NCBI GenBank assembly: GCA_947258805.1 | Contig: CAMYJV010000044.1 | Coordinates: forward strand, 1-14,716 | Length of the DNA stretch: 14,716 nucleotides | Direction of reading: 5' to 3' | DNA from: an uncultured Gammaproteobacteria bacterium | GTDB taxonomy: Bacteria > Pseudomonadota > Gammaproteobacteria > GCA-2729495 | Program-made: the position numbers and the translations under genes | Notes under the pieces: generated by a model | What the model was told of the DNA's origin: nothing | Seen by the model: the letters and a program-made list of their open reading frames with translations, nothing else | Databases searched by the model: none | Shown: piece by piece, positions 1,021 through 14,716 of the stretch | Numbering within the stretch: position 1 is the first letter of the stretch | How the letters are laid out: the number at the start of each line of letters is the position of its first letter

Positions 1021-1026
1021 AAAAGA

Positions 1027-1032
1027 CCTCCC
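1027..1032 (-). promoter_or_regulatory. Ribosome binding site deciding a TTG start
   Basis: GGGAGG on the minus strand, six bases upstream of the TTG at 1020. It is the only good Shine-Dalgarno sequence between the in-frame stop and the first membrane helix, so it fixes the start of the AI-2E family gene. Confidence 0.6.
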
Positions 1033-1124
1033 GACGGTCCCGGTGACTCAGTGCTGGCGGAAATCATCGCATACCCCAAACGAACCCGCACAGCCTCGGG
1101 GCGGTGAGCTGGCGCCCGGTGTGG

Positions 1125-2387
1125 CTAGACGGCCTCTCGCGGCACCGGCTTCATGAACAGGAACACGACACCGGCGACCATGACCGGGACCACCGCGCAC
1201 CACGTGAAGGCCTGCTGCCAGCCGACGGCGGCAATCACGTAGGAGGCGGCCAGCGGTCCGCCGCCGAAGCCCAGTTCAATGGCCAGCGAGCCCGCAACAC
1301 TGGCGGCGGTGGCCCGCAGCTCGGCCGGAAAGTTCTCGGCAATGAAGGTGGCAATCACCGCATAGGCGCCGTAGAAGAAGAATGTCATGCAGCTGAAGCT
1401 GATGATGATCTGCCACCAGCTCTCGGCGAGCCAGATCATCACGGCAAAGGCCAGGCCGCCGAGCCAGCTCCAGATGACGATCGTGTTCCGGCGGGTGACG
1501 AAAAACTCGCCGACGAAGGCCGCCAGCACGTAACCGAAACCGCCGACCAGGAAAGACAGGCCTACGGTCTGAATAGCTTTTTCCGGTTCCCAGCCGAGGT
1601 CTTCCTGGAAATACGCGGTGAGCAGAATGGTCGTGCCGTAGGCGAACACGTAGAGGAACTGCCCGACGAACAGGAGAATGGTCTTGCGGCGCAGGCCCGG
1701 CTCGAACAGCCGGCGAATACTGGGTTGCGGGGCGCCTTCTACCGGTGCCTGGCGAGCGTCGACCCAGGCTTTGGGTTCCTTCAGGTAACGGTGAATAATC
1801 CAGACGTAGGGCAGAAACAGCAGCGCGAGCAGAAAAATATAGCGCCAGCCCCAGGTAGTGAGTACCCACGCGCCCAGCATCGACGCAATGAAGGCGCCGA
1901 TAGGAAAGCCGATCTGCAACACGCCGGAGAACAGGCCCCGCAGCCGGGCCGGCGCCTCTTCGATCATCAGCGTGACGGTAATGGGCGACTGCGCGCCGGC
2001 GAAGGCGAAGCCGAAAGTTCGCGCCACGAGCAGGCTTAGCGTATTCGGAACCCAGGTCAGGGCGGCGACGAAAAAGGGCGTCAGCAGGTTGGTGACCACC
2101 AGCATGCGCTTGCGCCCGAGGCGATCTGTGAGCACGCCGAGCCGCGTGATCACGATGCCGGCGAGCGCAAAGGTCAGGAAAATGTACCAGCCGCGTTCCG
2201 TCACGCTCCAGCCGAATTCTTCCGACATTTGTGTCAGCACGAAGTTGAACAGCAAGTGATCGAAATTGGCGAATACGACGCCGATCAGGCAGATCAGGAA
2301 GACCCGCCAGGTATGGCCGGGGACGCCGGCGAGCAAGGCCAGGATGCCGGGTTCCTTGTCCATGGGTTGATTGGCGGGCACGCTCAA
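1125..2387 (-). CDS. MFS transporter, 12 transmembrane segments
   Basis: A 420-residue major facilitator protein of normal length. TM1 carries an NFDHLLFNFVL segment. The loop between TM2 and TM3 carries the MFS motif A as GVLTDRLGRKR (residues 84-94). An E-x-P-x-x-x-RG stretch after TM4 (around EEAPARLRG) is typical of the MHS/AAHS-like and sugar-porter branches. Hydrophobic helices continue to the C-terminus. Substrate unknown; organic or aromatic acids are reasonable given the catabolic neighbours, but this is inference. The start is a TTG with GGGAGA seven bases upstream. The first ATG (2363) has no ribosome binding site but would give only a slightly shorter protein. It is transcribed divergently from the nitrilase at 2494 across 106 bases, and this shared upstream region suggests a functional link, perhaps import of that enzyme's substrate. 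Confidence 0.9.
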   Translation of the reverse strand: MSVPANQPMDKEPGILALLAGVPGHTWRVFLICLIGVVFANFDHLLFNFVLTQMSEEFGWSVTERGWYIFLTFALAGIVITRLGVLTDRLGRKRMLVVTNLLTPFFVAALTWVPNTLSLLVARTFGFAFAGAQSPITVTLMIEEAPARLRGLFSGVLQIGFPIGAFIASMLGAWVLTTWGWRYIFLLALLFLPYVWIIHRYLKEPKAWVDARQAPVEGAPQPSIRRLFEPGLRRKTILLFVGQFLYVFAYGTTILLTAYFQEDLGWEPEKAIQTVGLSFLVGGFGYVLAAFVGEFFVTRRNTIVIWSWLGGLAFAVMIWLAESWWQIIISFSCMTFFFYGAYAVIATFIAENFPAELRATAASVAGSLAIELGFGGGPLAASYVIAAVGWQQAFTWCAVVPVMVAGVVFLFMKPVPREAV

Positions 2388-2394
2388 GGCTCGA

Positions 2395-2400
2395 TCTCCC
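2395..2400 (-). promoter_or_regulatory. Ribosome binding site of the MFS gene (TTG start)
   Basis: GGGAGA on the minus strand, seven bases before the TTG at 2387. It favours the TTG over the internal ATG at 2363, which has no purine-rich sequence before it. Confidence 0.5.
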
Positions 2401-2480
2401 GATCCGATGCGCTAGACTCGGCGCAGCATAACAGGGCTCATGCAGGTTGCCGGGGTGCGGCAGCGGCGTGACCAACCAGC

Positions 2481-2487
2481 AGAAGGG
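2481..2487 (+). promoter_or_regulatory. Ribosome binding site choosing the second of two ATGs
   Basis: AGAAGGG abuts the ATG at 2488 but lies six bases before the ATG at 2494, so the second ATG is the better start. The paralogous gene at 7168 has the same arrangement (two ATGs two codons apart, Shine-Dalgarno well placed for the second). Confidence 0.55.
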
Positions 2488-2493
2488 ATGACG

Positions 2494-3648
2494 ATGACTC
2501 TGCAGTACACGGCCGTGGGTATCCAGAACGAGTCGCACATGGCTCTGACCATCGACGATTACTGGACCGATCTGCGCTCACTGGCGGAGAGCATCAAATA
2601 CGCGGTCTGGAACTGCAGTCTCGATCTGCCGGTGCGCCTGGTGTCGGTGTCCGAAGGCGGCATTGGCGGATGGTGTCTGGGTGGGGGAGAGGAACACCTG
2701 CGCATTGCCCGTGAGGTGGTACCGACCATTCCGGGACCGGAGACAGAGTTTCTCGGCGAGCTGTGCAAGGAATTCGATTTCTACCTGATTGCGCAGATGA
2801 TCGCGAAAGATCCCGAGCTGATGGAAGACCGGGTTTTCAATATCGCCTTCGTGATCGGACCAGATGGCCAGGGGATCCACAAGCACTACAAGACGGCGTT
2901 CTACCAGCGCGAACCCAATACTGCACCTAGCGATATCTGGAACCTGTACCTGGAGCGCTATGGCGACGATCCGCAGCGCCTGTTCGAAGCCGTATTCCCG
3001 GTAGCGAAGACCGAGATCGGTAATATCGGCACGCTGATCTGTGCCGAAGGCAGTTTTCCGGAGGCCGCGCGGGGCCTCGCCCTGAACGGTGCCGAGATTA
3101 TCTGGCGCACGCAGTACCCGGAACCGTGGATGGGCAACGGTTTCGCCGAGACCCAGAACAAGTCCCACGCCATCTTCAACACCTGTTACGTGCTGGCGCC
3201 GAACATCGGTGAAATCTGGTTCCCCGGCGGCCAGCAGAAGATGAGCTGCGGCAAGAGCCAGATCATCGACTACCGCGGCAACGTGATTTCCGAGTATCTG
3301 GGTGGCGGGCAAACGCTGGTTTCGTCCATTATCAACATCGACGGCTTGCGGGACTTCCGCGTGCGGGCACAATGGCAAAACCTCGCCAAGGACCTGCGCG
3401 TGGAGGAATACAAGGTCATCTATGACGCGATGATGGCCAGGGGCGGGATCTACCCGGCCAACCTCGCGATGGACAAGCCCCCAATGGATGAGGGGCAGCA
3501 ACTGGAACTGGTGAAACACCAGATCAACAAGATGGTGGCCTGGGGCGTGTATACCGCGCCGCCTGCCTGGGAACCCTATGAGGTCGATCCGGAAGTCAAG
3601 GCACGGATCGATGCGGCCGAAGCAATTAGTAAAGGAGCAGATCGATGA
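2494..3648 (+). CDS. Nitrilase-superfamily carbon-nitrogen hydrolase, catalytic triad intact
   Basis: A 384-residue member of the carbon-nitrogen hydrolase family (PF00795), which hydrolyses nitriles, amides or carbamoyl compounds through a Glu-Lys-Cys triad. The triad is visible: Glu54 in LVSVSEGGIGG, Lys133 in HKHYKT, and Cys183 in GTLICAEGSFPEA. An NGAEIIWR block and a YVLAPN segment follow, as in family members. It is longer than most amidases (about 260-345 residues), with an insertion of about 35 residues between Lys and Cys and a C-terminal extension of about 60-70 residues. The substrate is unknown. The stop overlaps the next gene as ATGA, so the two are translationally coupled. It is a clear paralog of the protein at 6095-7168 (shared YTAV, CSL-LPVRL, KTEIGNI, NGAEI and LPEPW-like blocks), but only this copy keeps the catalytic cysteine. 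Confidence 0.9.
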   Translation: MTLQYTAVGIQNESHMALTIDDYWTDLRSLAESIKYAVWNCSLDLPVRLVSVSEGGIGGWCLGGGEEHLRIAREVVPTIPGPETEFLGELCKEFDFYLIAQMIAKDPELMEDRVFNIAFVIGPDGQGIHKHYKTAFYQREPNTAPSDIWNLYLERYGDDPQRLFEAVFPVAKTEIGNIGTLICAEGSFPEAARGLALNGAEIIWRTQYPEPWMGNGFAETQNKSHAIFNTCYVLAPNIGEIWFPGGQQKMSCGKSQIIDYRGNVISEYLGGGQTLVSSIINIDGLRDFRVRAQWQNLAKDLRVEEYKVIYDAMMARGGIYPANLAMDKPPMDEGQQLELVKHQINKMVAWGVYTAPPAWEPYEVDPEVKARIDAAEAISKGADR

Positions 3649-4067
3649 GCGACGCGCACGCAGTGGACTTTTCACAGATTCGCGGTGACTGGCATTTTCA
3701 CCTGAATTTTCTCGCGAACGCGGTCAAGCAGAGCCTCGTGCGTGCCCAGAAGATGTGGGGCGAAGTAGAGTCCGAAGCCGGCAGCTCGGCCGTTGGCGAG
3801 CTCGTTAACAAGCTCGGTGACGCGTGGTCCCGGCTGGAAGCCACGGCGACGGGCAAGGATCCGATTGATATTGCCAGCCCTATTGTGGACGAGTTCATGG
3901 AACTGTGCGCCCAGTGCAAGGCGCCTTGTGACGAGCTGGAAGAGACGAAAGGCCTTGGTGGTTCCGCGTCCATCTACGATACGCCGCTGGAGCACTTCAC
4001 AGAGGCCATGCGCCAGGTCCGCAGCTTCAATGACGACCTGGTGATGATGCGGGAGCAGAAGCCTTAG
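3645..4067 (+). CDS. Unknown 140-residue protein with a CX2CX3C motif, coupled to the nitrilase
   Basis: Not recognised. The start ATG overlaps the nitrilase stop (ATGA) and has AAAGGAG seven bases upstream, so it is almost certainly a real, co-translated gene. The protein is soluble, acidic and probably mostly helical, with no signal peptide. Near the N-terminus is a DWHFHLNF segment with two histidines (17 and 19). The centre carries Cys88, Cys91 and Cys95 in an ELCAQCKAPCDEL context, a possible metal site or disulfide cluster. The C-terminus has a helical HFTEAMRQVRSFNDDL stretch. Because it is coupled to an amidohydrolase, it could be a small subunit, chaperone or regulator of that enzyme. 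That is inference from position only. Confidence 0.75.
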   Translation: MSDAHAVDFSQIRGDWHFHLNFLANAVKQSLVRAQKMWGEVESEAGSSAVGELVNKLGDAWSRLEATATGKDPIDIASPIVDEFMELCAQCKAPCDELEETKGLGGSASIYDTPLEHFTEAMRQVRSFNDDLVMMREQKP

Positions 4068-4158
4068 GATCCACCGAGGTTTCGCTGATCTGGGCCTTCG
4101 CGCATCCACCGTAGGCCGAAGTCCGATCTAGTTCTTGTCGGCGGCGCAAACGCGGATG

Positions 4159-4860
4159 TCAACGAACCCGTCGACCCACCAGGCCCAGCAGACTCAATCC
4201 TCCCAGCAGCAATGGCAGGCTGGCCGGCAGCGGGACAATCACGATCGGCGTAATGTCGACGAACAAACCCGCTGCGTCCATCTGCAGCGCGTTGGCGTTG
4301 GGGTTGCCGAGAATCGCGGTCACCTGCTGGGCGGTGAGATCGAAACCGGTCAGCTGGCAATCCATCAGGTTGGGTGGCGTGCTGATCGGCGGATTGCACT
4401 CGTTGTTGTGGGGCAGCCCCAGATTGTGGGCGAGTTCGTGGGAGTTCAGGATCGCGCCGGCAGTAACGCTGTTGAACACGGCAGGGTCAGCGGCGGCGAG
4501 CGAAGCGACAACGATATTGTTGCCATTGATCGTTGCGCAGCCGTCGATCGTCGGCGATGGACTCGGCACGCTGCACACGGTGACCGTGTCCACGAAGTAC
4601 ATATTGATGCCCGGCGGCGCAACGGGCATCAGGGAAAACAGTGCGTTCAGATCCGCCAGCGTGTTGATATTCAGCAGGCTGCTGTTGGCTATGGATATGG
4701 TCGGCTGAAAACGGACGTCGATTGTCATTGGGCCGAAACTGGCTTGGGAAAAAATCGTGTTCATGTCTGCCTGGTTCGTCGTGACGAACGCGGCCCGGCT
4801 CAAACCGGGCATGATCGACAGGACGAACAGGGCGAGAACGGCCAGGTTTTTCTTGTTCAT
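4159..4860 (-). CDS. Secreted metzincin-like zinc protease with VPLPA-CTERM anchor
   Basis: A 233-residue exported protein. The start ATG at 4860 has AGAGAGG six bases upstream; an upstream ATG at 4881 would add only seven residues. Residues 1-24 form a signal peptide (MNKKN, hydrophobic core, cleavage near SRA-A). Residues 141-151 read HELAHNLGLPH, the HExxHxxGxxH zinc motif of metzincin metalloproteases, and Met166 in PNLMDC is a plausible Met-turn. Four cysteines (96, 108, 155, 168) could form disulfides outside the cytoplasm. The C-terminus has VPLPA at 209-213, then a leucine-rich helix and a GRRVR tail. This is the VPLPA variant of PEP-CTERM sorting signals, cut by an exosortase or archaeosortase-like enzyme, which is not in this window. 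The target is unknown. It converges on the 140-residue protein gene, 91 bases away, with no clear terminator between them. Confidence 0.82.
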   Translation of the reverse strand: MNKKNLAVLALFVLSIMPGLSRAAFVTTNQADMNTIFSQASFGPMTIDVRFQPTISIANSSLLNINTLADLNALFSLMPVAPPGINMYFVDTVTVCSVPSPSPTIDGCATINGNNIVVASLAAADPAVFNSVTAGAILNSHELAHNLGLPHNNECNPPISTPPNLMDCQLTGFDLTAQQVTAILGNPNANALQMDAAGLFVDITPIVIVPLPASLPLLLGGLSLLGLVGRRVR

Positions 4861-5040
4861 GATGATCCTCTCTGTACGCATGACACGTGGGGCAGGAGAG
4901 GAACGGGCTGGTCAGCACAACCCAGCTCACCGATGTTGTCGCGCAGCGGCTGAACGTAGCGGGCATCACTCGCCACCTTCTCTCTACCCCAGCGCCATCG
5001 GGTATGCGGCCTACCTTGCGCCGATTCCTGGCCTATGTCT

Positions 5041-5057
5041 AGCCATGCCAAATGGCT
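5041..5057. repeat. Perfect 6-base inverted repeat in the protease leader
   Basis: AGCCAT and ATGGCT are separated by five bases. If the candidate promoter at 5072-5101 is right, this hairpin would lie within the first 25 bases of the protease transcript, where it could affect stability or initiation. Its small size makes chance occurrence possible. Confidence 0.35.
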
Positions 5058-5066
5058 GCTCGAAAA

Positions 5067-5092
5067 CTCTTATAATCAGAGCGTTATTAGAG
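5067..5092. repeat. Imperfect inverted repeat overlapping the candidate promoter (possible operator)
   Basis: CTCTTATAA (5067-5075) and TTATTAGAG (5084-5092) match in eight of nine positions around an 8-base centre. The repeat covers the -10 box and much of the spacer of the candidate promoter, which is where a repressor site would be expected. No regulator gene is in the window. Confidence 0.35.
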
Positions 5093-5101
5093 CCCTTTCA
5101 A
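5072..5101 (-). promoter_or_regulatory. Candidate sigma-70 promoter for the protease gene
   Basis: On the minus strand, TTGAAA (5101-5096; five of six to consensus) is followed after 18 bases by GATTAT (5077-5072; four of six). It would give a leader of roughly 200 bases before the protease ATG. Found by eye only. Confidence 0.35.
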
Positions 5102-5168
5102 TAGTTAGTGAACTGCGCCGACAGCTGGCGTGATGCGCCGCGGTCCACGTGAGAGATCCCTGGCGCAG

Positions 5169-6098
5169 CTAGGGTCTTTCCGCCTGGTGCTGCGCCCGAA
5201 GCCGGCGGAAAGCAACGATGGCCGCGTCGCTGGGCACGAGTTTTTCCCCGCTGGCATCATCGACGCTGTAGGGAAATTGCGAGTCGAGTACCGCCTGGTC
5301 TTCGTGGAAGACCAGGTAATTGCCGATGCGGCACCACAGGCGCATCAGCGGTCGCAGCAGCGCAAATTTCAACCGGTGGTGCACCCGGCAGTAGACTTCC
5401 GTGTGGTGCTCGTCTACCGGCGCAAATGTTACCGACATCGCGTAGCTAGCCAGGGGTTGCTGGGTCCAGACATTGGGATAGGTGAAGTCTACGTGATGCC
5501 GCACGCGATCGCCCTGCATCAGTTTCGAGCGGAAGCCGCCGGGGATGTCTTCGACCTGGATCCGTGTGACGGGATCCCGGATACGGCGCCCGAGCGTCTT
5601 GCGATGCACGAAGGGCAGGTGACTGTGGTCGACAACCCCCTCGATGCAACGCGTGTAGTGCGCCGGCCAGTGCTGAGTGCATTCATCGTAGACGAGCTCA
5701 TCGACGCCCGGTTGATGAGGCACCGGGGGTAGATCATCTGCCGCGACTTCCGGACCGCGCCACAGCCAGACGAAGTGCTGGCTTTCCCGGATCGGCATGG
5801 CGCGAGCCCGGAAGTGTTGGGGTATTTCCCAGTCATCTCCCTCGGCGGGTACGCGCAGGCAGCGGCCGTCCCGCGCGAACTGGAAACCGTGATAGGGGCA
5901 GGTAATGGCGCCGTCCACCACCTCGCCCAGGCTTAGTGCTGCTCCCCGGTGCGGGCAACAGTCAACAAGGCAGCCTGGCACCCCGTCCGCATCGCGCCAG
6001 AAGACCATTCGCTCACCAAAGCGGCGCTTTGCAACCGGCCGTTGCTGAAGCTCCCGCGAGCTGAGCACCGCGTACCAGTGCCCGCTGGACACCGTCAC
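5169..6098 (-). CDS. Rieske non-heme iron oxygenase, catalytic (alpha) subunit
   Basis: About 309 residues. The Rieske [2Fe-2S] ligands are Cys48 and His50 (CPH) and Cys67 and His70 (CPYH). The mononuclear iron site is E153-x3-D157-x2-H160-x4-H165 (EGVVDHSHLPFVH), and Asp267 in an HEDQAVLD segment is the likely third ligand. All cofactor residues are present, so it should be active with an external ferredoxin/reductase, which is not in the window. The family hydroxylates, demethylates or cleaves aromatic and other cyclic substrates. The compact alpha-only architecture resembles the vanillate demethylase/PaO-like branch rather than naphthalene dioxygenase. The GTG start at 6098 overlaps the TGA of the preceding gene (GTGA), so it is translationally coupled; a GTG at 6092 is an alternative. 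It is the third gene of the UbiD/nitrilase-like/Rieske operon. Confidence 0.9.
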   Translation of the reverse strand: MTVSSGHWYAVLSSRELQQRPVAKRRFGERMVFWRDADGVPGCLVDCCPHRGAALSLGEVVDGAITCPYHGFQFARDGRCLRVPAEGDDWEIPQHFRARAMPIRESQHFVWLWRGPEVAADDLPPVPHQPGVDELVYDECTQHWPAHYTRCIEGVVDHSHLPFVHRKTLGRRIRDPVTRIQVEDIPGGFRSKLMQGDRVRHHVDFTYPNVWTQQPLASYAMSVTFAPVDEHHTEVYCRVHHRLKFALLRPLMRLWCRIGNYLVFHEDQAVLDSQFPYSVDDASGEKLVPSDAAIVAFRRLRAQHQAERP

Positions 6099-7168
6099 TT
6101 CTTGTCTGGCCGGATATTGCTGCGCGTGAAGGCGCCGCGCTCGATCAGCGTGTCCACCGCGTCCGCCACGATGCGGCCCTTGTCGGCATGCTGCAACGGC
6201 GGCAGGTTTTTTGGCCAGATGGGTTGTTCGTAGAGTTTCTGGAAGATCTCGGTCTTCAGGTACGGCAGCCAGTTCTGGAAGCGCGAATGCTCCCGGTAGT
6301 GCCGCAGGGCTTCGATGTCGATCTGGGTCGAGATATAGCAATCGTCAACGACCATACTTTCAGCCAGCACTTCACCCCGGTACCCGTAAATACCCGTCCG
6401 GCCGCCCAGCGCCCCACCAATGCTGGTATCCGGCGTGCCCGGCGGTCCGGCGACGATTAGCGACCCGGTGTTCGGCGCCAGCATATAGCAGGTGTTGTCC
6501 ATGGCCCGGGCGCGATTCTGCAGCTGGAAAATGCCGCGCGAGACCCAGGGCTCGGGCAATGACGCGTGATACAGGATTTCCGCACCGTTCATTGCAAAGG
6601 CTCGCCAGGCCTCCGGGAACGCGCCTTCGACGCCCACGCTGCCGGCGATGTTGCCGATCTCCGTTTTCGCTACCGGGAAGAAGGTTTCGAGGCTGTCGCC
6701 GTGTTCCGCAACCCAGTCGTCGTACACGTCGTGGGGCGTGGTGGAGTGCTCGGTGTACAGGATGATGTTTTTCTGGTGTTCGTAGACGATTTCACCCTGC
6801 GGGCTGATCATGAACACCGTGTTGAAGAAACGGCCCGGGAACTTCGCATGTTTGGTCTTCAGCTGCGCGACGATGAAACAGCCGTGCTGTTTGGCCTTGT
6901 CGGCGAGCATCTCCGTTTCCCAGCCGGGCAAGTCGGCCGCCATGACCTCCGTGTACTGCGCCTGCTCCATGTCGATGATTTCGTCGATGAAGCCCTGGAT
7001 TGCCCCTTCTCCCAGCGTAATCAGGCGCACCGGCAGTTCCAGGGAGCAGATGTGCATGACCAGATCGATCATGTTGCCGATGTGCCGGAGATTCTTCTCC
7101 ACCTCCTGGCGCGTCGGCACGTTGTGCACGCTGGTCTGCAGTGCAACGGCGGTGTACGGCGCAATCAT
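6095..7168 (-). CDS. Nitrilase-family protein lacking the catalytic cysteine
   Basis: A 357-residue member of the carbon-nitrogen hydrolase family, clearly homologous along its length to the protein at 2494-3648. Glu54 (ITLGEGAIQG) and Lys133 (EHQKN) fall at the same positions, but the nucleophile position is Gly179: the segment reads GNIAGSVGVEGAFPEAW where the paralog has GNIGTLICAEGSFPEA. No other Cys lies nearby. It is therefore either a non-catalytic or binding/scaffold member, or one with altered chemistry. The start is ATG 7168, with GAGG eight bases upstream; an in-frame ATG at 7174 is possible but sits too close to that site. It begins just after the UbiD stop (7179), and its own stop overlaps the Rieske GTG, so all three are one operon. 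A single-base error (TGC to GGC) could in principle create the Gly, but flanking residues also differ. Confidence 0.88.
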   Translation of the reverse strand: MIAPYTAVALQTSVHNVPTRQEVEKNLRHIGNMIDLVMHICSLELPVRLITLGEGAIQGFIDEIIDMEQAQYTEVMAADLPGWETEMLADKAKQHGCFIVAQLKTKHAKFPGRFFNTVFMISPQGEIVYEHQKNIILYTEHSTTPHDVYDDWVAEHGDSLETFFPVAKTEIGNIAGSVGVEGAFPEAWRAFAMNGAEILYHASLPEPWVSRGIFQLQNRARAMDNTCYMLAPNTGSLIVAGPPGTPDTSIGGALGGRTGIYGYRGEVLAESMVVDDCYISTQIDIEALRHYREHSRFQNWLPYLKTEIFQKLYEQPIWPKNLPPLQHADKGRIVADAVDTLIERGAFTRSNIRPDKK

Positions 7169-7178
7169 CGGCATGTCC

Positions 7179-8600
7179 TCAGGCGGCTGATTTCTTGCCG
7201 GCCTTCGGCGCGACATAGTCGTCGAGGCGCAGCTCGTCGGCGCCCGGTGTTACCGGCCGCACCAGCTTGTCTACGTCTTCCAGGTCCATCGTCGCATCGA
7301 TGCCGATGCGCGCTGAGAGTTGCCCCTCTTTGGCCGCGCGTTCGAGTTCCCAGCTTTCGACATCGGGAATCACCATGAACTTGCGCGCATCCGCGGCCCG
7401 GTTCCAGATAGCCCACTGCACGTCGTCCATGCTGTGCACGTCGATATCGTCGTCCACCACGATAATTCGCTTCGCAATCTTGCTGACCGGGAAGATGTGC
7501 CCGCCGGCTTCCAGGGTCTTGTGAATGATCTGCTCCGGTTCAGCATCGCTGGTCTTGTCGATACTAATCACCACGTGGGCGAGGGTCCCGAGGCCGGGCT
7601 CCAGGTACACGTGGATCTGCTTGATATCCGGCAACACAGCGCGTACCGATGCCTCGATACTGCGCTGCACGCCGTACACGGCGATGCCACCCAGCGTGTT
7701 GTGCTCCGGGTGACGGCCCGCCATGATCGTATGGAACAGCGGGTCGCGCCGGTGGGTGATCGCAGTCACCATGGTCGCCGGCGCCGTCTCCGGACCATAC
7801 TGGCCGGCGAACTCGCCGAGGAGGTTCGTGACCCGTTCCGAGAAGTCCACCGTGCCTTCAATGATGAACTCGGCACTGGCGGGTACCAAAAGGTCATTGG
7901 TCTTGCACTTGACCAGCTCCACGGCCTGGCCTGCCAGCGCGCCCCCGACACCGAATTCGGGCACATTCGGGGGCAACTTGCACGCCGCGGCCACCACCAT
8001 TGCCGGATCCGCGCCGATGGCCAGGGCAATCGGCATCGGCCGCCCGGTTGCCTCCCAGGCGGCGTAGTGCCGGCGCAGATCGCTCATGCTGCTGGCGTTG
8101 ATCACGCAGCGGTTCTTGCCGATGATCAGCGTCCGGTACACGCCGATGTTGTAGATGCCGTTGTCCGGATCGCGGGTGATGCCAATGGCGGCGGTCATGA
8201 AGGGCCCGCTGTCCAGTTCGAAGAAAGTGGGGATCGGCAGAGTGCTCAAATCTACGTCGTCGCCGGTGATCACTATCTCCTGCGAGACCGCCTGCGCTGT
8301 TGTCACCGGGTCAATGGGAGCAGCCTTCGCTGCCTCCAACAGCGCGTCAAAGCGGGTGTCGTCGAAGGCCTCAGGGTCGGGCTGATCCAGCGCCAGCGCA
8401 AAGCGCGGCAGGGTATTCAGCAGGCCCCCCACGGCACGGTAGCTGGCGCCGCGCACCTTCTCGAACAGGAAGGCCTGCCGCGCCAGGTCGAGCGTTTGCA
8501 TCACGGCCGCCATCTCGAAACGAGGCTCAACCTCGCGTGAAACGCGGGCCAGTCCACCCCGCTGTTCAAGCAGTGCGACGAAAGAACGTAGGTCCTGCAC
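7179..8600 (-). CDS. UbiD-family prFMN-dependent decarboxylase
   Basis: A 473-residue protein of usual UbiD length. UbiD enzymes reversibly decarboxylate (or carboxylate) aromatic and unsaturated acids using prenylated FMN made by UbiX, which is not in this window. It opens with the typical QDLRSFVALLEQRGGLARV N-terminus. YNIGVYR around Arg156 and VPASAEFIIEGT with Glu244 and Glu248 correspond to the cofactor and active-site region. The HNTLGG block and the C-terminal IIVVDDDIDVHSMDDVQWAIWNRA segment are family signatures. The start is GTG 8600, supported by AGGAG eight bases upstream and by the family N-terminus; the frame stays open upstream to 8783, but that extension has no family similarity. 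The substrate is unknown. The neighbouring Rieske oxygenase and nitrilase-like protein suggest catabolism of a carboxylated aromatic or amide compound. Confidence 0.92.
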   Translation of the reverse strand: MQDLRSFVALLEQRGGLARVSREVEPRFEMAAVMQTLDLARQAFLFEKVRGASYRAVGGLLNTLPRFALALDQPDPEAFDDTRFDALLEAAKAAPIDPVTTAQAVSQEIVITGDDVDLSTLPIPTFFELDSGPFMTAAIGITRDPDNGIYNIGVYRTLIIGKNRCVINASSMSDLRRHYAAWEATGRPMPIALAIGADPAMVVAAACKLPPNVPEFGVGGALAGQAVELVKCKTNDLLVPASAEFIIEGTVDFSERVTNLLGEFAGQYGPETAPATMVTAITHRRDPLFHTIMAGRHPEHNTLGGIAVYGVQRSIEASVRAVLPDIKQIHVYLEPGLGTLAHVVISIDKTSDAEPEQIIHKTLEAGGHIFPVSKIAKRIIVVDDDIDVHSMDDVQWAIWNRAADARKFMVIPDVESWELERAAKEGQLSARIGIDATMDLEDVDKLVRPVTPGADELRLDDYVAPKAGKKSAA

Positions 8601-8608
8601 CTGGGTGA

Positions 8609-8613
8609 CTCCT
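8609..8613 (-). promoter_or_regulatory. Ribosome binding site deciding the UbiD GTG start
   Basis: AGGAG on the minus strand, eight bases before the GTG at 8600. It excludes the longer open frame (to 8783) and the ATG at 8648, whose translation does not resemble UbiD. Confidence 0.6.
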
Positions 8614-8768
8614 GCAATCAGACTGCCCGGTCGGGCGAGCGGCTGCATTGTATCTGCGCAGTGGTCAGGGACGCAGGCACGGTCCGAAGCTTGACCGCCC
8701 AAGGGGCAGGCGGGGTGGCGTAGAAGGGGTCTCTGCCGGACTAATTCTTTAATGAATGGGTAAAATAT

Positions 8769-8806
8769 TCTCATTAAAAACAATTTAATAGAATGTTTTC
8801 ATGAGA
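8769..8806. repeat. 38-base imperfect dyad, probable operator
   Basis: The core at 8777-8799 is a 23-base palindrome (AAAACAATTTA, central A, TAGAATGTTTT) with nine of eleven arm positions matching. It is flanked by a second perfect pair, TCTCAT (8769-8774) and ATGAGA (8801-8806), so that symmetry extends across 38 bases with a one-base offset. This size and its place between divergent genes fit a binding site for a dimeric regulator. No regulator gene is visible nearby. Confidence 0.5.
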
Positions 8807-8934
8807 GTTATTCTAGACTTGAATCAGGGCCACTCATAGCTTGTGTGATCCTGTATCAGCGGCTGTTTCCCGTTAGGCAAGCAGCACCGGTTCGGGGCAT
8901 GATCGCCGTTGCACGAAGTGACCCAGCAACGAGC

Positions 8935-8940
8935 GGGAGG
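8935..8940 (+). promoter_or_regulatory. Ribosome binding site of a TTG-started gene
   Basis: GGGAGG five bases before the TTG at 8946. The next in-frame ATG is about 49 codons in, inside the membrane domain, so this site supports the TTG start. Confidence 0.6.
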
Positions 8941-8945
8941 CGGTC

Positions 8946-9557
8946 TTGAGTAACGCGGCAGAAGCAACCCTGGCAGAGGCGGGTACGGACGCAGATCCGC
9001 AACGGTATTTCTGGTACGGGGTGTGGGCAGTCCTGTTGGGGGTGTCCTTCCTGCCTTTGCTCGGCAGTCCGTTTCGGCTGCCACAGGTCATGAACTACAC
9101 GGCCCTGCTCGTGATTCACGAATTCGCCGCTTTCCTGTTCTTTGGCCACACGTTTTTCAGCAACATCTGGGCAATGAAACTCCGGTTGACGGAGCCGGAA
9201 GAGACGGGTGTTCGCGCCCGGTCTTTCCTGCGCATCCTCGCCATGAGCATCACCGGGCCGACCTCTTTCATTATCCCCGTCACCGGTCTGATGGTGGTGG
9301 AGTCCTTCGGTGGCCTGGAAGCTGCCCCCTGGGCCTGGGACGCGTACTTCGCCTTCTGGATCATGCTTGGTATCAGCATCATTCCCGACGTGATTCGCTA
9401 TGCGCGCAACCGCAATGCCGGCCAGGTGCGCCACGGCATGAAGAGCGGCGGGATCCGCGGCATGCTGGCCTTGGTGCTGACCCTGTACATCATGGTCTGC
9501 ATGGTGGCGAAGGTGTCGATTTTTGCCGGACCTCTAGGCGGTCTGCTCATCAGATGA
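8946..9557 (+). CDS. Integral membrane protein, DUF2269-like
   Basis: A 203-residue protein with about five membrane helices (near residues 22-40, 52-75, 97-118, 131-150 and 172-192). It starts at TTG with a strong ribosome binding site. Histidines at 58 (VIHEF) and 68 (FGHTF), and a TGPTSFIIPVTGLMV stretch in the third helix, resemble the predicted membrane protein family DUF2269, which is distantly similar to CopD-like or cytochrome b-type four-helix proteins. No function is established; heme or metal binding through the helix histidines is a guess. Its stop overlaps the lipoprotein start (ATGA), so the two are coupled and may form a membrane complex. Confidence 0.7.
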   Translation: MSNAAEATLAEAGTDADPQRYFWYGVWAVLLGVSFLPLLGSPFRLPQVMNYTALLVIHEFAAFLFFGHTFFSNIWAMKLRLTEPEETGVRARSFLRILAMSITGPTSFIIPVTGLMVVESFGGLEAAPWAWDAYFAFWIMLGISIIPDVIRYARNRNAGQVRHGMKSGGIRGMLALVLTLYIMVCMVAKVSIFAGPLGGLLIR

Positions 9558-10042
9558 CGCCCGGCCCGCTGGCAGCCCGGCTGATCTTGTTGCTGCTGGT
9601 TGCCATGGCAGCCGGGTGTGCGGGGGACGACGATCCTGCAACGGCTAATGAGCAGCTGGTGGCTCGCTACTACGAAGAAGTCTTTAACGACCGCAACCTC
9701 GAGTTCCTGAACGAGGCGCTGCGGAATGACGTGGTGGGTCACGGCCCGGGGATGGATGACCGGGTGGAAGGTATTGCCCAGGTGGCGGCCTTTTCTGCCT
9801 ACGTTTACGAGATCTACGATGATTATCGCCTGACGGTAGACCAGCTCTTCGGACGCGGCGACTTTGTGCAAGTAAGGGCAACCGTCACCGCCGTGCACCG
9901 GCCCACCGGTCGCCCGGTGCGCTTCTTCGGGCTGTCTGTCTACCGGCTGGAAGGCGGCCAAATCGCGGAATACTGGCGTGCCTATGACCGGCTGGATCTC
10001 TATGAGCGTCAGCTCGGCGGGTGGCGCCCGGACGGCTCCTGA
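9554..10042 (+). CDS. SnoaL/NTF2-like lipoprotein
   Basis: A 162-residue protein beginning with a lipoprotein signal: MTPGPLAAR, a leucine-rich core, then AAGC with Cys22 as the lipidated residue; Ala at +2 predicts outer-membrane sorting. The mature part (ANEQLVARYYEEVFNDRNLEFLNEAL and, near the C-terminus, GGQIAEYWRAYDRLDLYEQ-like) has the alpha+beta barrel pattern of the SnoaL polyketide-cyclase/NTF2-like superfamily, which includes isomerases, cyclases and many non-enzymatic binding proteins. A periplasm-facing SnoaL-like lipoprotein would more likely bind a small ligand, but that is inference. It is coupled by ATGA overlap to the upstream membrane protein and converges on the SDR gene with a gap of only four bases. 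Confidence 0.82.
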   Translation: MTPGPLAARLILLLLVAMAAGCAGDDDPATANEQLVARYYEEVFNDRNLEFLNEALRNDVVGHGPGMDDRVEGIAQVAAFSAYVYEIYDDYRLTVDQLFGRGDFVQVRATVTAVHRPTGRPVRFFGLSVYRLEGGQIAEYWRAYDRLDLYERQLGGWRPDGS

Positions 10043-10046
10043 CCAC

Positions 10047-10760
10047 CTACCAGGCCACGGTCTCGCCGTTGTATCGCCGGAACGTGCCACTGTGTTCCGG
10101 CTGCAGATCGGCAATCAGCTGGCGCAGGCCGGTCACGCTGTCTTCCGGCTTCACGTCTGCGGTGCCGAAATCCATGCGGGTTTGCACGTAGCCGGGACAA
10201 AAGAGGGCAACGATGATGCCCCGGTCGCGCAGCACGCCCGCCAGCAGTCGCATGCCCTTGTTCAGGGCCGCCTTGCTGGAGGCATAGGCAAAGGCGGGCG
10301 TGTCGCGTTCCACCAGCGAACCCACGGTGCTCGACAGGGAGACGATCTTTTTCTGCTCGCTGGCCGCGACGGCATCGACGAAGGCTTCCGCCATCTTCAT
10401 CGGTCCCAGCGTGTTCGTGCGCAGCACCTGCTGCCACAGGTCATAGTCCAGCGTGCCGAAGTGCTGGCGTCCGATATGCTGCGGAATGGGCACCGGGCCG
10501 ATCATGCCGGCGTTGTTCAGCAGCACGTCGATGGTCTGGCCCCGATAGCGGTGGGCGACGGCGTCTACCTGGTCGTGATCCGTAACGTCGAGGCCTTCGA
10601 CAATCAGTTCGCCGTCGCCGGTTAGCGCTTCCAGGCCGCCGGCGTTGGCAGGGTCGCGCACGGTGGCGATCACCCGCCAGCCGTCAGCCAGGTACTGCCG
10701 CGCGAACTCCAGCCCGATGCCGCGATTCGCACCGGTGACCAGCACCGTGGGCCGGCTCAC
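10047..10760 (-). CDS. Classical short-chain dehydrogenase/reductase
   Basis: A 237-residue SDR with all core motifs: TGANRGIG at 9-16 (nucleotide-binding glycine motif), NNAG at 82-85, a serine at 143/144 (SLSS), and the Tyr159-x3-Lys163 catalytic pair (YASSK). The Arg13 next to the glycine motif is often seen in NADP-preferring members, but that does not prove it. The C-terminal end (SGTFRRYNGETVAW) resembles C-factor/CsgA-like SDRs. Substrate unknown. The GTG start overlaps the TGA of the upstream epimerase-like gene (GTGA), so it is the last gene of a three-gene minus-strand operon. Confidence 0.92.
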   Translation of the reverse strand: MSRPTVLVTGANRGIGLEFARQYLADGWRVIATVRDPANAGGLEALTGDGELIVEGLDVTDHDQVDAVAHRYRGQTIDVLLNNAGMIGPVPIPQHIGRQHFGTLDYDLWQQVLRTNTLGPMKMAEAFVDAVAASEQKKIVSLSSTVGSLVERDTPAFAYASSKAALNKGMRLLAGVLRDRGIIVALFCPGYVQTRMDFGTADVKPEDSVTGLRQLIADLQPEHSGTFRRYNGETVAW

Positions 10761-11620
10761 GCGAGCAGGTCCTCTGCCTCACGCTCGCTCAGCGGATCCG
10801 CCAGCGTGAACCCCGCTGCCTTGATTTTCCCGTTGCTCACCTTGCGCGGGCCCTTGCTGAGGCCCAGCCAGGTGATGGGCGCCAGGCCTGCCTGCTCGCC
10901 CACCTTGCCGAAGAACTCGGCCTTGGAATCCCGGACGTCGTTGAACAGGTTGTAGAGACCGTCGAGGCGGTTCTCAATCGCGAATTGCAGCCCCCGGACC
11001 ACGTCGTCACGATGCACGATCATCGCGTCCGATTCGCCGTCAAACGGGATCTGCTGACCGGCAATCCGGGCGACTTCCAGCGCATGCAGCCGGCCGGGCC
11101 CGTAGATGGTCCCCGTGCGGTAGTTGCACACGTGCAGGCGCTCGGTAGCCGCCTTTGCCAGCAGTTTTTCGGTGTCGATATAGACCTGAGCGAAGGGTGA
11201 TGTCGCGTTCGGCGGGGTGGCTTCGTCCACGTGATCGGCACCGCCGGCATCGCCGTAGGCGTTCAGGGAGCTGCAGAAGACGATCTGCTGCAAACCGGGC
11301 GCCGCATCCAGGCTGGCCAGCAGGGATTCTGCAGTACCCACGTACGAGTCACGGTACAGCTCCGGGTCCATATACGGCTTGCCGTCTTTCTCCGTGAGGC
11401 CTCCGGCCATGGTCAGCAGGACCACATCCTGGCCGGCGATCAGCTCCCGCATTTTGTCGCGATCGCTGCCCTTCATCACAACTACCCGGTCGGCGACACC
11501 CGCCAGTTCCGCCTCGCGTTCCGGCCGGGTGGTCGTCACGCTGATTTCATGTCCCTGGCTGCGCAGGAGACGGGCTGCCGCAAGCCCCGTGTAGGCGGCT
11601 CCAACGATGGCGATTTTCAT
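10757..11620 (-). CDS. Extended SDR / NAD(P)-dependent epimerase-like protein
   Basis: A 287-residue Rossmann-fold protein starting MKIAIVGAAYTGLAAARLL, then CSSLNAYG (Ser117/118), TGTIYGPGR and a substrate-lobe HRDDVVRGL block typical of the NAD-dependent epimerase/dehydratase family. Two deviations stand out. The nucleotide-binding loop is GAAYTG rather than GxxGxxG. The active-site Tyr147 is five rather than four residues before Lys152 (YIDTEK). It may therefore act on an unusual substrate or have weak catalysis. The ATG at 11620 has an AGG eight bases upstream in a strikingly AT-rich leader. It lies 33 bases after the bilin-reductase-like gene and overlaps the SDR gene, forming one operon. 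Confidence 0.85.
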   Translation of the reverse strand: MKIAIVGAAYTGLAAARLLRSQGHEISVTTTRPEREAELAGVADRVVVMKGSDRDKMRELIAGQDVVLLTMAGGLTEKDGKPYMDPELYRDSYVGTAESLLASLDAAPGLQQIVFCSSLNAYGDAGGADHVDEATPPNATSPFAQVYIDTEKLLAKAATERLHVCNYRTGTIYGPGRLHALEVARIAGQQIPFDGESDAMIVHRDDVVRGLQFAIENRLDGLYNLFNDVRDSKAEFFGKVGEQAGLAPITWLGLSKGPRKVSNGKIKAAGFTLADPLSEREAEDLLA

Positions 11621-11653
11621 TATAAAAACCTATATAAAACAAGTACTCGAAAG

Positions 11654-12409
11654 TTATATATCACTTAGATTGTTCATCAGGACCCGGCGCATTTCCTGGC
11701 CCTGATCGGTGCCGACCAGGCGGTAAACGCCTTTCCAGGCCCGCGGGTCGAGGCGCTCGCTGAAAAAGCCTTCCAGGTGGCGCCGGTTGCGCTCACGCAT
11801 CTCCGCCGGCTTCGGGGGCGGGTAGTCGAGGGTGTTCACCAGGTCGAGCCAATGGTCCAGGTAGACATGAATCTGTTCACCGACCCGCTCGAGTTCCGCG
11901 CGATCGGTAGGCCGGCCCGCGCCGATGCTCCACGGTGACAGGTAAGCGGCAATGGCCGGGTTTGCGGGGGCACTGGCGCAGGCATTGTCGGCGTTCTGCG
12001 TGGCCCGCCAGTAGGCCTTGGTAATCGGGCCGAACACCGCTTCGATGTATGCCGGGTGGTCGATGGGATCCAGGCGCGGCAATAAGTCGGCGTTGTAGAC
12101 GCAGCGATCCTCGCCAAACTGAACCACCTGGCCGTGAAAGTGCGGCATCACGCTGGTGGCGGTGCCGAACAGGAAGAACAGCTGGGTGTCGGCCGGGTCG
12201 CCTGCCAGCCGGATGTGGACCATGCGGTCCACGCACCCGCCGCCGGCCCACAAGCGCAGGAAACCGGCAGGTTGCCCGGGGTTGTCGGCAATCGTCAAAG
12301 GCAACAGCGGCGAGCCGCCCGCGCCGGTGCGTTCCTCGAACCGCAGCCGCGCCGTGCAGCGCGACACGAGGCCATTGACGAAGCTGAAACCAAAGTCACT
12401 GGTAGTCAT
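11654..12409 (-). CDS. Protein resembling ferredoxin-dependent bilin reductases (PcyA/RCCR superfamily)
   Basis: A 251-residue protein that I align by eye with phycocyanobilin:ferredoxin oxidoreductase from memory. Residues 73-120 (ADTQLFFLFGTATSVMPHFHG, then VYNADLLPRLDP) match the central strand region, with Asp108 in the position of the catalytic aspartate segment. Residues 156-167 (YLSPWSIGAGRP) match the SPYCLFIRP-like strand. The C-terminal RNRRHLEGFFSERLDPRAW segment and its LMNNLSD ending match the last helices. Length also fits (about 240-250). Such enzymes reduce biliverdin-type linear tetrapyrroles or chlorophyll catabolites with ferredoxin and have no other cofactor. The family call is tentative and function unproven. 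There is no clear ribosome binding site. It is first in an operon with an epimerase and an SDR, and divergent (77 bases) from the riboflavin-kinase/HAD gene. Confidence 0.5.
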   Translation of the reverse strand: MTTSDFGFSFVNGLVSRCTARLRFEERTGAGGSPLLPLTIADNPGQPAGFLRLWAGGGCVDRMVHIRLAGDPADTQLFFLFGTATSVMPHFHGQVVQFGEDRCVYNADLLPRLDPIDHPAYIEAVFGPITKAYWRATQNADNACASAPANPAIAAYLSPWSIGAGRPTDRAELERVGEQIHVYLDHWLDLVNTLDYPPPKPAEMRERNRRHLEGFFSERLDPRAWKGVYRLVGTDQGQEMRRVLMNNLSDI

Positions 12410-12486
12410 GGCTGGTGAGCATACGGATGGGCGTTCCGCGCAGTGCCGATTGCGGTTGCCCGTGTTCGCTAGGCAGAATCGACGGC

Positions 12487-13536
12487 ATGGAAGACTGGCA
12501 ATTCAGCGGCCGGGTGACGGCGGGCGTAGGTCAGGGCAGCGGCTTTACCTCTCTCGACTGGGTTCGCGATGCGTTGATGGCTGCGGTCGGCATCGAGCCG
12601 TTCCCCGGTACGCTGAACCTGCGGCTGGAGTCGGACAGCGCGCTGGAGGCCTGGACGAAGCTCCAAGCGTCGCCGGGTATCCGGATTCCCGGCCAACGGG
12701 GCGCCTGTGATGCGCGCTGTTATCCCGTGCGGGTGGCTGAGCGCGTGCCCGCGGCAATAGTCCTGCCGGAAGTTGCCGGCTATCCGCCGGCGCAGGTAGA
12801 ACTGGTGGCCGCACTACCCATGCGCCAACACCTGGACCTGAGCGAAGCTGACGAAGTTCTGGTCCAGGCCAGTCCGCGCGGCCTCGTGACAGCGGCCATC
12901 TTCGACGTGGACGGCACGCTGATCAACAGCGTGGACGCGTACCACATCGCCGCTGGCCGGGCGGCAGCGCCGCTGGGTTACACCGTCACTCACGACATGG
13001 TGCGCCAGGCCCTGAACTCGCAACAACCGTTCTGGAATGTGGTCATTGAGAATCCGGCGGAACGGACCGCCGACACGATCGCGAATCTGCGCCGGGACAC
13101 CATGCGGCACTGGGGGGACGTGCTCGACGAGCATGTATCGGTGTTTCCCGGGCTGCGGGCGACGCTGGAGGGACTGCAGGCCGGCGGCCTGAGATTGGCC
13201 ATCTACACCGGGTCGCGCGGGGAGTCCTTCGGGCCCCTCGAGCGTTCCGGGCTGCTCGAATTCTTCGAGATCGTGTTGACCGCTGACGACGTGGAGGAGG
13301 CGAAGCCGCACCCGGAAGGCGTGCTCAGGTGCCTGGAAGTTCTGGGCGTTGCCCCGGCCGAGGCGGCCTATATCGGTGACTCGGTGCCGGATATGGGTGC
13401 CAGCCATGCGGCCGGCGCGCGCGCCGTTGGCGTGCTGACCGGTGCAGCGGACTCGGCCGCCCTGTCGGCAGCCGGTGCGCACGATCTGGCAGCTGATCAT
13501 GCAGCCCTGTTGAGGATACTGCTGCCACAACGCTAA
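12487..13536 (+). CDS. Fusion of CTP-dependent riboflavin kinase-like domain (DUF120) and HAD phosphatase
   Basis: A 349-residue two-domain protein. Residues 5-128 match the archaeal riboflavin kinase family (RibK, DUF120/PF01982): FSGRVTAGVGQG glycine-rich opening, PFPGTLNLRL with the PGTLN signature (40-44) whose Thr and Asn hold Mg2+ in the archaeal enzyme, CYPVRV, a LPEVAGYPPAQVELVA segment and an LDLSEADEV end. Residues 134-345 are a HAD hydrolase with every motif: DVDGT (nucleophile Asp140, acid Asp142), TGS (241-243), Lys273 in AKPHPEG, and GDSVPD (297-302), with a helical cap as in phosphoglycolate phosphatase-like enzymes. The archaeal kinase makes FMN from riboflavin with CTP. The HAD part could dephosphorylate FMN or a related phosphate. 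ATG 12487 is chosen because the domain begins right after it; a GTG at 12415 would add 24 unstructured residues. No strong ribosome binding site precedes either start. Confidence 0.85.
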   Translation: MEDWQFSGRVTAGVGQGSGFTSLDWVRDALMAAVGIEPFPGTLNLRLESDSALEAWTKLQASPGIRIPGQRGACDARCYPVRVAERVPAAIVLPEVAGYPPAQVELVAALPMRQHLDLSEADEVLVQASPRGLVTAAIFDVDGTLINSVDAYHIAAGRAAAPLGYTVTHDMVRQALNSQQPFWNVVIENPAERTADTIANLRRDTMRHWGDVLDEHVSVFPGLRATLEGLQAGGLRLAIYTGSRGESFGPLERSGLLEFFEIVLTADDVEEAKPHPEGVLRCLEVLGVAPAEAAYIGDSVPDMGASHAAGARAVGVLTGAADSAALSAAGAHDLAADHAALLRILLPQR

Positions 13537-13630
13537 CGCGTAGCGCCGGTCCCCCGTCGCACCAGGCCTCCCGCAGCGTGACAACTGGAGTATGCTGATA
13601 GCAGGCTAATGCTCGCATTGGCGGGGAATC

Positions 13631-14398
13631 ATGAACTCTCGATCGATAACGATGCCGTTGATCAATGCGCTGGCGCTGGCGCTGACCCTGCTCGTCAACG
13701 GTCTGGCCAGCGGGCTGCCGCTTAACGGCCAGACCACCGGACAGATTTCCGACCGGTTTGACGTCTACTTCGTGCCGGCCGGCTACGTTTTCTCGATCTG
13801 GGGGCTGATTTACGCCGCCCTGATTGCCTTCGTGGTCTATCAGTTCTTGCCGGCCCACCGGGACAGTCCGGCGGCTGGAAGGGTCGGCTGGTTATTTGCC
13901 GCGAGCTGCGGGGCCAATATCGGCTGGATCTTCTGCTGGCACTACGAGCTTTTTCCGCTCGCCCTCCTCACGATGCTGTTCATGCTGGGCTGCCTGATCA
14001 GCATTTATCTGCGCCTGGATATCGGCGGACACGATGTACCCGGGCCGGATCGCTGGTTCGTGCATGCGCCGTTCAGCCTCTACCTCGGCTGGATTACGGT
14101 AGCCACCATCGCCAATACCACGCAGCTGCTGGACTACCTGGCCTGGGGTCGCTGGGGCCTCGCTGCGGAAACCTGGATGGTGGTCATGCTGGCCGTGGCA
14201 GTGGCCCTGGCCGCAGTCGTGGCCTGGCGCCGCCGCGATGTGATTTATTTGCTGGTGCTCGTCTGGGCGCTGGCGGGTATCGGTGTCAAGCAGGAGCCGG
14301 TGGCGCTGGTCGCTACAGGCGCCTGGGTTGCCGCCGGCGCGATAGCGCTGCTGGCACTGGCATCACTGGTGCGCCCGTTGCGCCGGTCCGCCGCCTAG
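13631..14398 (+). CDS. TspO/MBR-like (tryptophan-rich sensory protein family) membrane protein
   Basis: A 255-residue polytopic membrane protein with roughly seven to eight hydrophobic helices and many tryptophans. The FVPAGYVFSIWGLIY segment (about 47-61) resembles the PPGYVFxxxW signature of TspO, and a GANIGWIFCWHYE segment lies about 50 residues later. Classical TspO has about 160 residues and five helices, so this belongs to the longer 250-residue group often annotated as tryptophan-rich sensory protein. TspO proteins bind porphyrins, and some degrade protoporphyrin to a bilin-like product. The ATG has GGGGA shortly upstream. Its TAG stop overlaps the stop of the convergent UbiD gene in a CTAG palindrome. 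Family assignment is moderate and ligand unproven. Confidence 0.6.
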   Translation: MNSRSITMPLINALALALTLLVNGLASGLPLNGQTTGQISDRFDVYFVPAGYVFSIWGLIYAALIAFVVYQFLPAHRDSPAAGRVGWLFAASCGANIGWIFCWHYELFPLALLTMLFMLGCLISIYLRLDIGGHDVPGPDRWFVHAPFSLYLGWITVATIANTTQLLDYLAWGRWGLAAETWMVVMLAVAVALAAVVAWRRRDVIYLLVLVWALAGIGVKQEPVALVATGAWVAAGAIALLALASLVRPLRRSAA

Positions 14399-14716
14399 TC
14401 GCGCCAGTTCCTGAAGTAATCGGCCCAGCGCTCGTTGACCAGGTCGAAGGTCTCCGGGCTGAGTTTCTCCAGCAGCACGCGCGATACTTCGGGCCATTGC
14501 TCCGGGCCGCCCTCGCCGGGCAGCTGACGCGTGGCGTCGATGATGATCTTGCTGGTCAGCCAGCGGGTCGGCGCACTCGGGTCCAGGGGCATGCCGCGCG
14601 TCTGCGGCAGGATTGCGGCCGCGGGGTGAGGCTGCCAGCGAGTGCCCAGCGCGCGCAGGATCTGGCTGCGGTCGTGGACGTCCACGTCGGCATCTACCAC
14701 GATGATCACCTTGCCG
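14395..14716 (-). CDS. Second UbiD-family decarboxylase, C-terminal part only
   Basis: The last 107 codons of a minus-strand gene that enters from the right edge. The sequence GKVIIVVDADVDVHDRSQILRALGTRW, then PLDPSAPTRW and KIIIDATRQL, is the standard C-terminal domain of UbiD decarboxylases (VIVVDxDVDxxD, then KxxIDAT). The catalytic core lies outside the window. It differs clearly from the UbiD at 7179-8600 in this region, so it is a separate paralog rather than a recent duplicate. Together the two genes imply more than one prFMN-dependent decarboxylation in this locus. Confidence 0.85.
   Translation of the reverse strand, partial: GKVIIVVDADVDVHDRSQILRALGTRWQPHPAAAILPQTRGMPLDPSAPTRWLTSKIIIDATRQLPGEGGPEQWPEVSRVLLEKLSPETFDLVNERWADYFRNWRD

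Follow-up and report, generated by a model that had tools for sequence, protein, structure and literature searches.

The fused gene and its two halves

The window analysed here, a 14,716-nucleotide stretch from an uncultured Gammaproteobacteria bacterium (contig CAMYJV010000044.1, positions 1 to 14,716, forward strand), contains a gene in which an archaeal-type riboflavin kinase domain dependent on cytidine triphosphate (CTP) is joined to a HAD-IA phosphatase. The reading frame starts with an ATG at 12487, is free of internal stops and closes with a stop codon ending at 13536. Because other sequences carry this fusion too, both a chimaera and two genes joined through an unseen frameshift were rejected, so that the single gene proposed in an earlier note on this DNA stands. 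The features of the gene are:

12487..13536, plus strand, fused gene of 349 amino acids, a CTP-dependent riboflavin kinase domain followed by a HAD-IA phosphatase (open reading frame, domain profiles, relatives, model)
12514..12867, plus strand, PF01982 (CTP-dep_RFKase, DUF120) domain, residues 10-127 (Pfam profile; fold match to RbkR and MJ0056)
12604..12618, plus strand, PGTLN signature, residues 40-44 (alignment)
12706..12720, plus strand, CDARC, residues 74-78 (alignment)
12898..13434, plus strand, HAD_2 domain, residues 138-316 (Pfam profile)
12901..12918, plus strand, HAD motif I FDVDGT, residues 139-144, with D140 and D142 (alignment)
13030..13035, plus strand, HAD cap residues FW, 182-183 (alignment of capped rows)
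13207..13209, plus strand, HAD motif II residue T241 (alignment)
13303..13305, plus strand, HAD motif III residue K273 (alignment)
13375..13392, plus strand, HAD motif IV GDSVPD, residues 297-302, with D298 and D302 (alignment)

PF01982 matched the whole protein at 92 bits and residues 1-133 alone at 95.3 bits (curated cut-off 25). Among solved structures, those nearest in sequence to the first half were MJ0056 (E 8e-10) and the Thermoplasma riboflavin kinase (E 4e-8), and two NCBIfam equivalog cut-offs were missed (ribK_Meth, 51.5 against 168; PRK14165, 70.3 against 279). This half contains a G-rich loop and PGT(L)N, which we take to be the metal/phosphate signature of PF01982 kinases. The full-length structure was predicted with a mean pLDDT of 96 and a pTM of 0.93. 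A search with the whole model gave only HADs in its 50 best rows, because the HAD fills the match list, and the first half was modelled separately; alone, it is predicted to have the RibK fold, matching RbkR and MJ0056.

The C-terminal half is, by sequence, a HAD-IA hydrolase. HAD_2 scored 107.7 bits (cut-off 23.8), all four motifs are present and, in the model, cap helices (148-216) sit between motifs I and II. The earlier note's description of a PGTLN-bearing DUF120 kinase domain followed by a four-motif HAD was thus borne out by profile searches of both halves and, for the first, by the predicted structure set against Methanocaldococcus jannaschii RibK. The top functional NCBIfam match of the HAD, among those listed, was phosphoglycolate phosphatase (TIGR01449, 107 against 180 bits); this identity and PpaX were rejected as under cut-off. 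Fold and motifs are shared with HAD-IA phosphatases such as phosphoglycolate phosphatase, AlnB and the Bacteroides pyrophosphatase, but the window HAD lies under each functional NCBIfam cut-off listed and has FW at its cap. W183 is found in 112/112 and F182 in 111/112 capped rows of the fused family, and the Phe-Trp pair in none of eight other HADs aligned. However, four of these eight carry Phe in the Trp column, which weakens FW as the mark of a unique substrate and makes it at most a hint of a dedicated one.

A conserved family and its mirror image

A search with residues 1-130 returned 173 proteins at E ≤ 0.001 among 2072 candidates, and 117 of the best 120 of these 173 contain both PF01982 and a HAD. 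Only proteins of 0.55-1.75 times the query length could enter this search, which is therefore biased towards fusions and passes over short stand-alone genes. Those of the listed matches that bear an organism name come from a Chromatiales bacterium, Sterolibacterium sp. and Geobacter argillaceus. The earlier note, right that the fusion is real, dealt with this one gene, which is a member of a family found in Pseudomonadota, Geobacter and an acidobacterial genome. Source databases label such proteins HAD-type hydrolases or phosphatases, and once riboflavin kinase, archaea type.

Catalytic residues of both halves are retained across this family. In an alignment of the query with its best 120 matches (121 rows), the tested kinase residues (13, 15, 42, 44 and 105) and HAD residues (140, 142, 241, 273 and 298) all pass in 111 rows. 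G13, G15, T42, N44 and E105 are almost invariant; G41, T42 and N44 of PGTLN are kept in all 121 rows, as is the Glu at 105. Six failing rows have the HAD broken, cut or absent (P0024, P0041, P0044, P0055, P0058 and P0071; P0058 additionally misses one kinase residue), and four have the first half changed or cut (P0033, P0051, P0092 and P0107). Five further rows keep the tested HAD residues without a cap (P0049, P0065, P0076, P0089 and P0097). Partner swaps were also seen, DUF120 being joined to a pyridoxamine-oxidase-like or a glyoxalase-like domain (P0044, P0058).

The window protein differs from archaeal RibK (MJ0056) and RbkR in being bacterial and HAD-fused, in having the first Cys of CxARC and in lacking Thr/Ser before the invariant Glu. 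This Cys (C74) is present in 121/121 fused-family rows and replaced in the four archaeal-type rows aligned that are linked to a helix-turn-helix (HTH). In the plant protein AtFMN/FHy, the hydrolase of flavin mononucleotide (FMN) is an N-terminal HAD and the kinase belongs to the RibF-type family, whereas in the window protein PF01982 is N-terminal and the HAD C-terminal; both are a kinase and a phosphatase in one chain. No PF01687 (RibF-type kinase) was found in the window protein at E 1 and, its kinase being of another family, the fusion differs in make-up from the plant one, as the earlier note had held. Both domain families were already known, as was the plant union, for which passages of PMC9678776 describe FMN hydrolase and riboflavin kinase in one chain. 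The literature searched (titles, abstract openings and term counts, with subscription journals largely outside) held no description of a bacterial PF01982-HAD fusion, its mirror form or a DUF120-UbiX operon.

A second fusion, of different build, was found in an acidobacterial genome set (with Bryobacter; n = 396), in which PF01982 occurs in nine genomes; it occurs in three of an actinobacterial set (with Leifsonia; n = 396). Five of the nine acidobacterial holders (G099, G144, G222, G238 and G318, of which G318 has a HAD truncated where the contig begins) likewise join PF01982 and HAD-IA in one chain, but in the opposite domain order to the window's, HAD first and DUF120 last. In the others the order is the window's (G342), the piece is cut by a contig end (G197) or the gene is of a short divergent form (G221 and G245). 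Both orientations occur in the taxonomic order of G342 (domain in 5/18 genomes); in that of G099 the domain is present in one of two genomes. The C-terminal DUF120 was also seen in eight database proteins (P0122-P0129, P0122 being that of G099), which with L007, L029, L031 and L033 make up the reversed family. The nearest HAD profile of the reversed form is REG-2-like (P0122, 128 bits; P0129, 111 bits; cut-off 155; two tested), whereas that of the window is phosphoglycolate phosphatase; YigB was rejected as the reversed HAD's identity, being below cut-off.

The two HAD sets are clearly homologous (hhalign probability 99.4). However, a profile of forward HADs scored a median of 330 bits on its own members and 50 on reversed HADs, and the reversed profile 386 on its own and 41 on forward HADs. 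Because each set scores the other so far below itself, a single fusion with a swap of order is unlikely; replacement of the HAD after one fusion could still be the history. A Natrinema gelatinilyticum plasmid frame (L010:3007-3930) also has PF01982 and HAD in the window's order; the forward profile gives its HAD 61 bits, the reversed one 16.5.

A tree of 59 kinase domains, rooted at midpoint only, placed 48 rows in one group (99/99), comprising the Natrinema fusion and all bacterial domains but two short divergent ones. Within it nine stand-alone forms branch first, followed by the reversed group (95/87), to which belong a PF01982 piece truncated where its contig ends and, with a very long branch, the Natrinema domain, and the forward group (99/95), which includes the pyridoxamine-oxidase-like and glyoxalase-like partner forms. 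The divergent L037 and L038 fall among the archaeal-type rows (some of which, P0131, P0134 and P0137, are so called from an extra N-terminal HTH-like part and from sequence). We read these relationships as suggesting one entry of the domain from archaea, then separate fusions to HADs. Replacement of RibF by PF01982 was rejected for the genomes tested, since 11 of the 12 holders keep PF01687 (exception G528), including all six with a fused gene; PF01687 is present in 18 of 19 genomes without PF01982 (exception G020).

A single-protein scan of genome contigs gave four loci, every match lying within the HAD half, and a viral contig scan at least three, the match in each of the three listed lying outside the kinase half. 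A phage origin for the main group was rejected, since the phage collection yielded nothing at E 0.01. The kinase half matched six of 72,556 plasmid records (five haloarchaeal and one from Azoarcus); the whole protein matched 171, the best 15 listed being mostly HADs alone.

Neighbours of fused and stand-alone genes

The genes flanking the fusion are:

7182..8783, minus strand, UbiD-family decarboxylase, 3.7 kb from the fusion (profile search)
13631..14398, plus strand, putative membrane protein, 255 amino acids, next same-strand gene, 94-base gap after the fusion
14395..14716, minus strand, second UbiD-family gene, C-terminal part only, running off the window, 0.86 kb from the fusion

The earlier note had placed UbiD-type genes within 4 kb on each side, and there they are. 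The 255-aa gene matched no Pfam family above its cut-off, and promoter and Rfam scans gave nothing useful. Forward fusions are readable in context in the window and in L034, a 3.5-kb contig on which an amidase gene adjoins; L035 is truncated by the end of its contig.

Whether the domain tracks with ubiD, a question raised by that note, has a divided answer. In Azoarcus sp. KH32C the phenylphosphate carboxylase operon contains a stand-alone DUF120 gene (L011:11977-12414) immediately behind ubiX, with a four-base overlap (ATGA) between the two, and a NUDIX gene is next. The Azoarcus protein has 28 relatives, of which the seven named are from Azoarcus (one) and Aromatoleum (six). By contrast, with Azoarcus UbiX, Azoarcus UbiD and Ppc proteins and the window UbiD as queries (E 1e-4), UbiX or UbiD was found at none of 19 other PF01982 loci: 14 (L008, L009 and L029-L040), several of them short, with two genomes contributing a pair each, and five haloarchaeal (L010 and L012-L015). 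The Azoarcus UbiX query had no match within the 14.7-kb window at the same threshold. The UbiD/UbiX link is therefore weak at fused genes and strong at one stand-alone relative.

UbiX joins FMN with dimethylallyl monophosphate (DMAP) or dimethylallyl diphosphate (DMAPP), according to passages of PMC6541611, and a part of PMC12359138 reports conversion of DMAPP to DMAP by NudJ in vitro. In a benzene-degrading culture, ubiD and ubiX shared a transcript with a gene of low identity to a NUDIX hydrolase (excerpt of PMC5852087). The Azoarcus DUF120 and NUDIX genes are candidates for a pair that supplies FMN and DMAP for prenylated FMN (prFMN).

Other PF01982 genes have different surroundings. The haloarchaeal plasmid genes L013-L015 adjoin or lie near ribB. 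The second copies of G222 and G238 and the G318 fusion lie near ribose-isomerase and pentose-phosphate genes, called by Pfam for G222 and from likeness by eye for G238 and G318. Two of five divergent short genes (L037:9601-10023 and L040:9085-9549) are near cytidylyltransferase genes, L040 also near a NeuB-family gene; their products are perhaps CTP-dependent kinases of sugars, not of riboflavin. The other three (including L036) have different neighbours.

Possible roles of the fused protein

The fused protein may be an accessory flavin-phosphate enzyme whose two active sites form a flavin-pathway pair, a tentative proposal to which we give somewhat less than an even chance. The N-terminal domain would phosphorylate riboflavin with a nucleotide as donor, probably CTP, yielding FMN beside the normal RibF; both substrates are suggested by family membership. 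The HAD, cooperating with it, would dephosphorylate another metabolite in this pathway: either FMN, giving a kinase/phosphatase cycle resembling plant AtFMN/FHy, which would be the possible synthesis/hydrolysis switch of the earlier note, or 5-amino-6-ribitylamino-2,4(1H,3H)-pyrimidinedione 5'-phosphate (ARPP), whose dephosphorylation (by ARPP phosphatase, EC 3.1.3.104) would feed riboflavin synthesis upstream of the kinase. A flavin-pathway HAD substrate is suggested because the pairing recurs, because the plant analogue exists, because Bacillus HADs can hydrolyse FMN as well as ARPP (passages of PMC7062661) and because EC 3.1.3.104 is a gap in haloarchaeal riboflavin synthesis (passages of PMC8305020). 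The existence of a mirror-image fusion points to a function common to both forms, probably in flavin metabolism. The Natrinema plasmid fusion is a possible candidate for the haloarchaeal gap.

Several observations count against this proposal. No assay was found, and the HAD was below every functional NCBIfam cut-off among the best 25 of 36 matches listed. A broken HAD in P0041 and other partners in P0044 and P0058 indicate that the kinase-HAD pairing is not strictly required. The position before the invariant Glu is Thr/Ser in archaeal-type rows, presumably an FMN contact (we take Thr/Ser and Glu to be the flavin-contacting residues), but Ala/Pro in 94/121 and Thr/Ser in 9/121 fused-family rows; thus, the acceptor may be something other than riboflavin. 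Certain acidobacterial PF01982 genes are near sugar-phosphate rather than flavin genes, and the two divergent genes near those for activated (cytidine monophosphate-linked) sugars imply that the family may phosphorylate other things.

Both domains might instead act outside flavin metabolism, on a sugar or pentityl phosphate, PF01982 being wider than riboflavin. We consider this somewhat unlikely, despite the pentose-phosphate neighbours in G222, G238 and G318, the cytidylyltransferase and NeuB neighbours of the divergent genes and the closeness of the window HAD to sugar-phosphate phosphatases by profile and fold: the divergent L037 and L038 are on a separate branch of the tree, the Azoarcus operon points to FMN use and haloarchaeal genes accompany ribB. 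It is less probable still that the protein supplies both UbiX substrates for the nearby UbiD, FMN coming from the kinase and DMAP from trimming of DMAPP by the HAD. The window lacks UbiX, the 19 other loci (several short) lack both genes, and the two window UbiD genes are on the opposite strand from the fusion and so share no operon with it. Moreover, DMAPP itself serves as substrate for some UbiX enzymes (passages of PMC6541611), and among the stand-alone bacterial genes in the main group the context of a single one is known. A related history, in which the archaeal kinase was first a dedicated FMN source for UbiX and was then fused at least twice to different HADs making DMAP, one protein thereby furnishing both components of prFMN, is very doubtful.

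DUF120 could instead be a sensor of a ligand (flavin or CTP) that gates the HAD, its kinase activity lost. Replacement of the presumed flavin-contacting Thr/Ser in most rows would fit this, as would the modelling of both domains as one body (the high pTM given above) and the coupling of the same domain to a DNA-binding part in Thermoplasma RbkR (title of structure 5trd). However, the near-invariance of G13, G15, T42, N44 and E105 is that expected of a working kinase, and the stand-alone Azoarcus form sits among enzymes; we regard this sensor role as improbable. Separate archaeal-type kinase-HAD unions besides the plant union would make such coupling a recurring solution and not a curiosity. 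The fusion also offers a sequence handle on the phosphatase step of riboflavin synthesis, the gap in haloarchaea, and on FMN and DMAP supply to UbiX.

Two minor observations concern other genes. At the low end of L039 (about 100-490), next to genes for P22-type coat and scaffold proteins, a frame of 163 residues matches DUF120 weakly (33.5 bits) and is possibly phage-borne. The window itself also encodes a Rieske oxygenase and two carbon-nitrogen hydrolases (PF00795; 2440-3648 and 6095-7216), both under all functional NCBIfam cut-offs, which perhaps turn amides or nitriles into acids for UbiD to decarboxylate.
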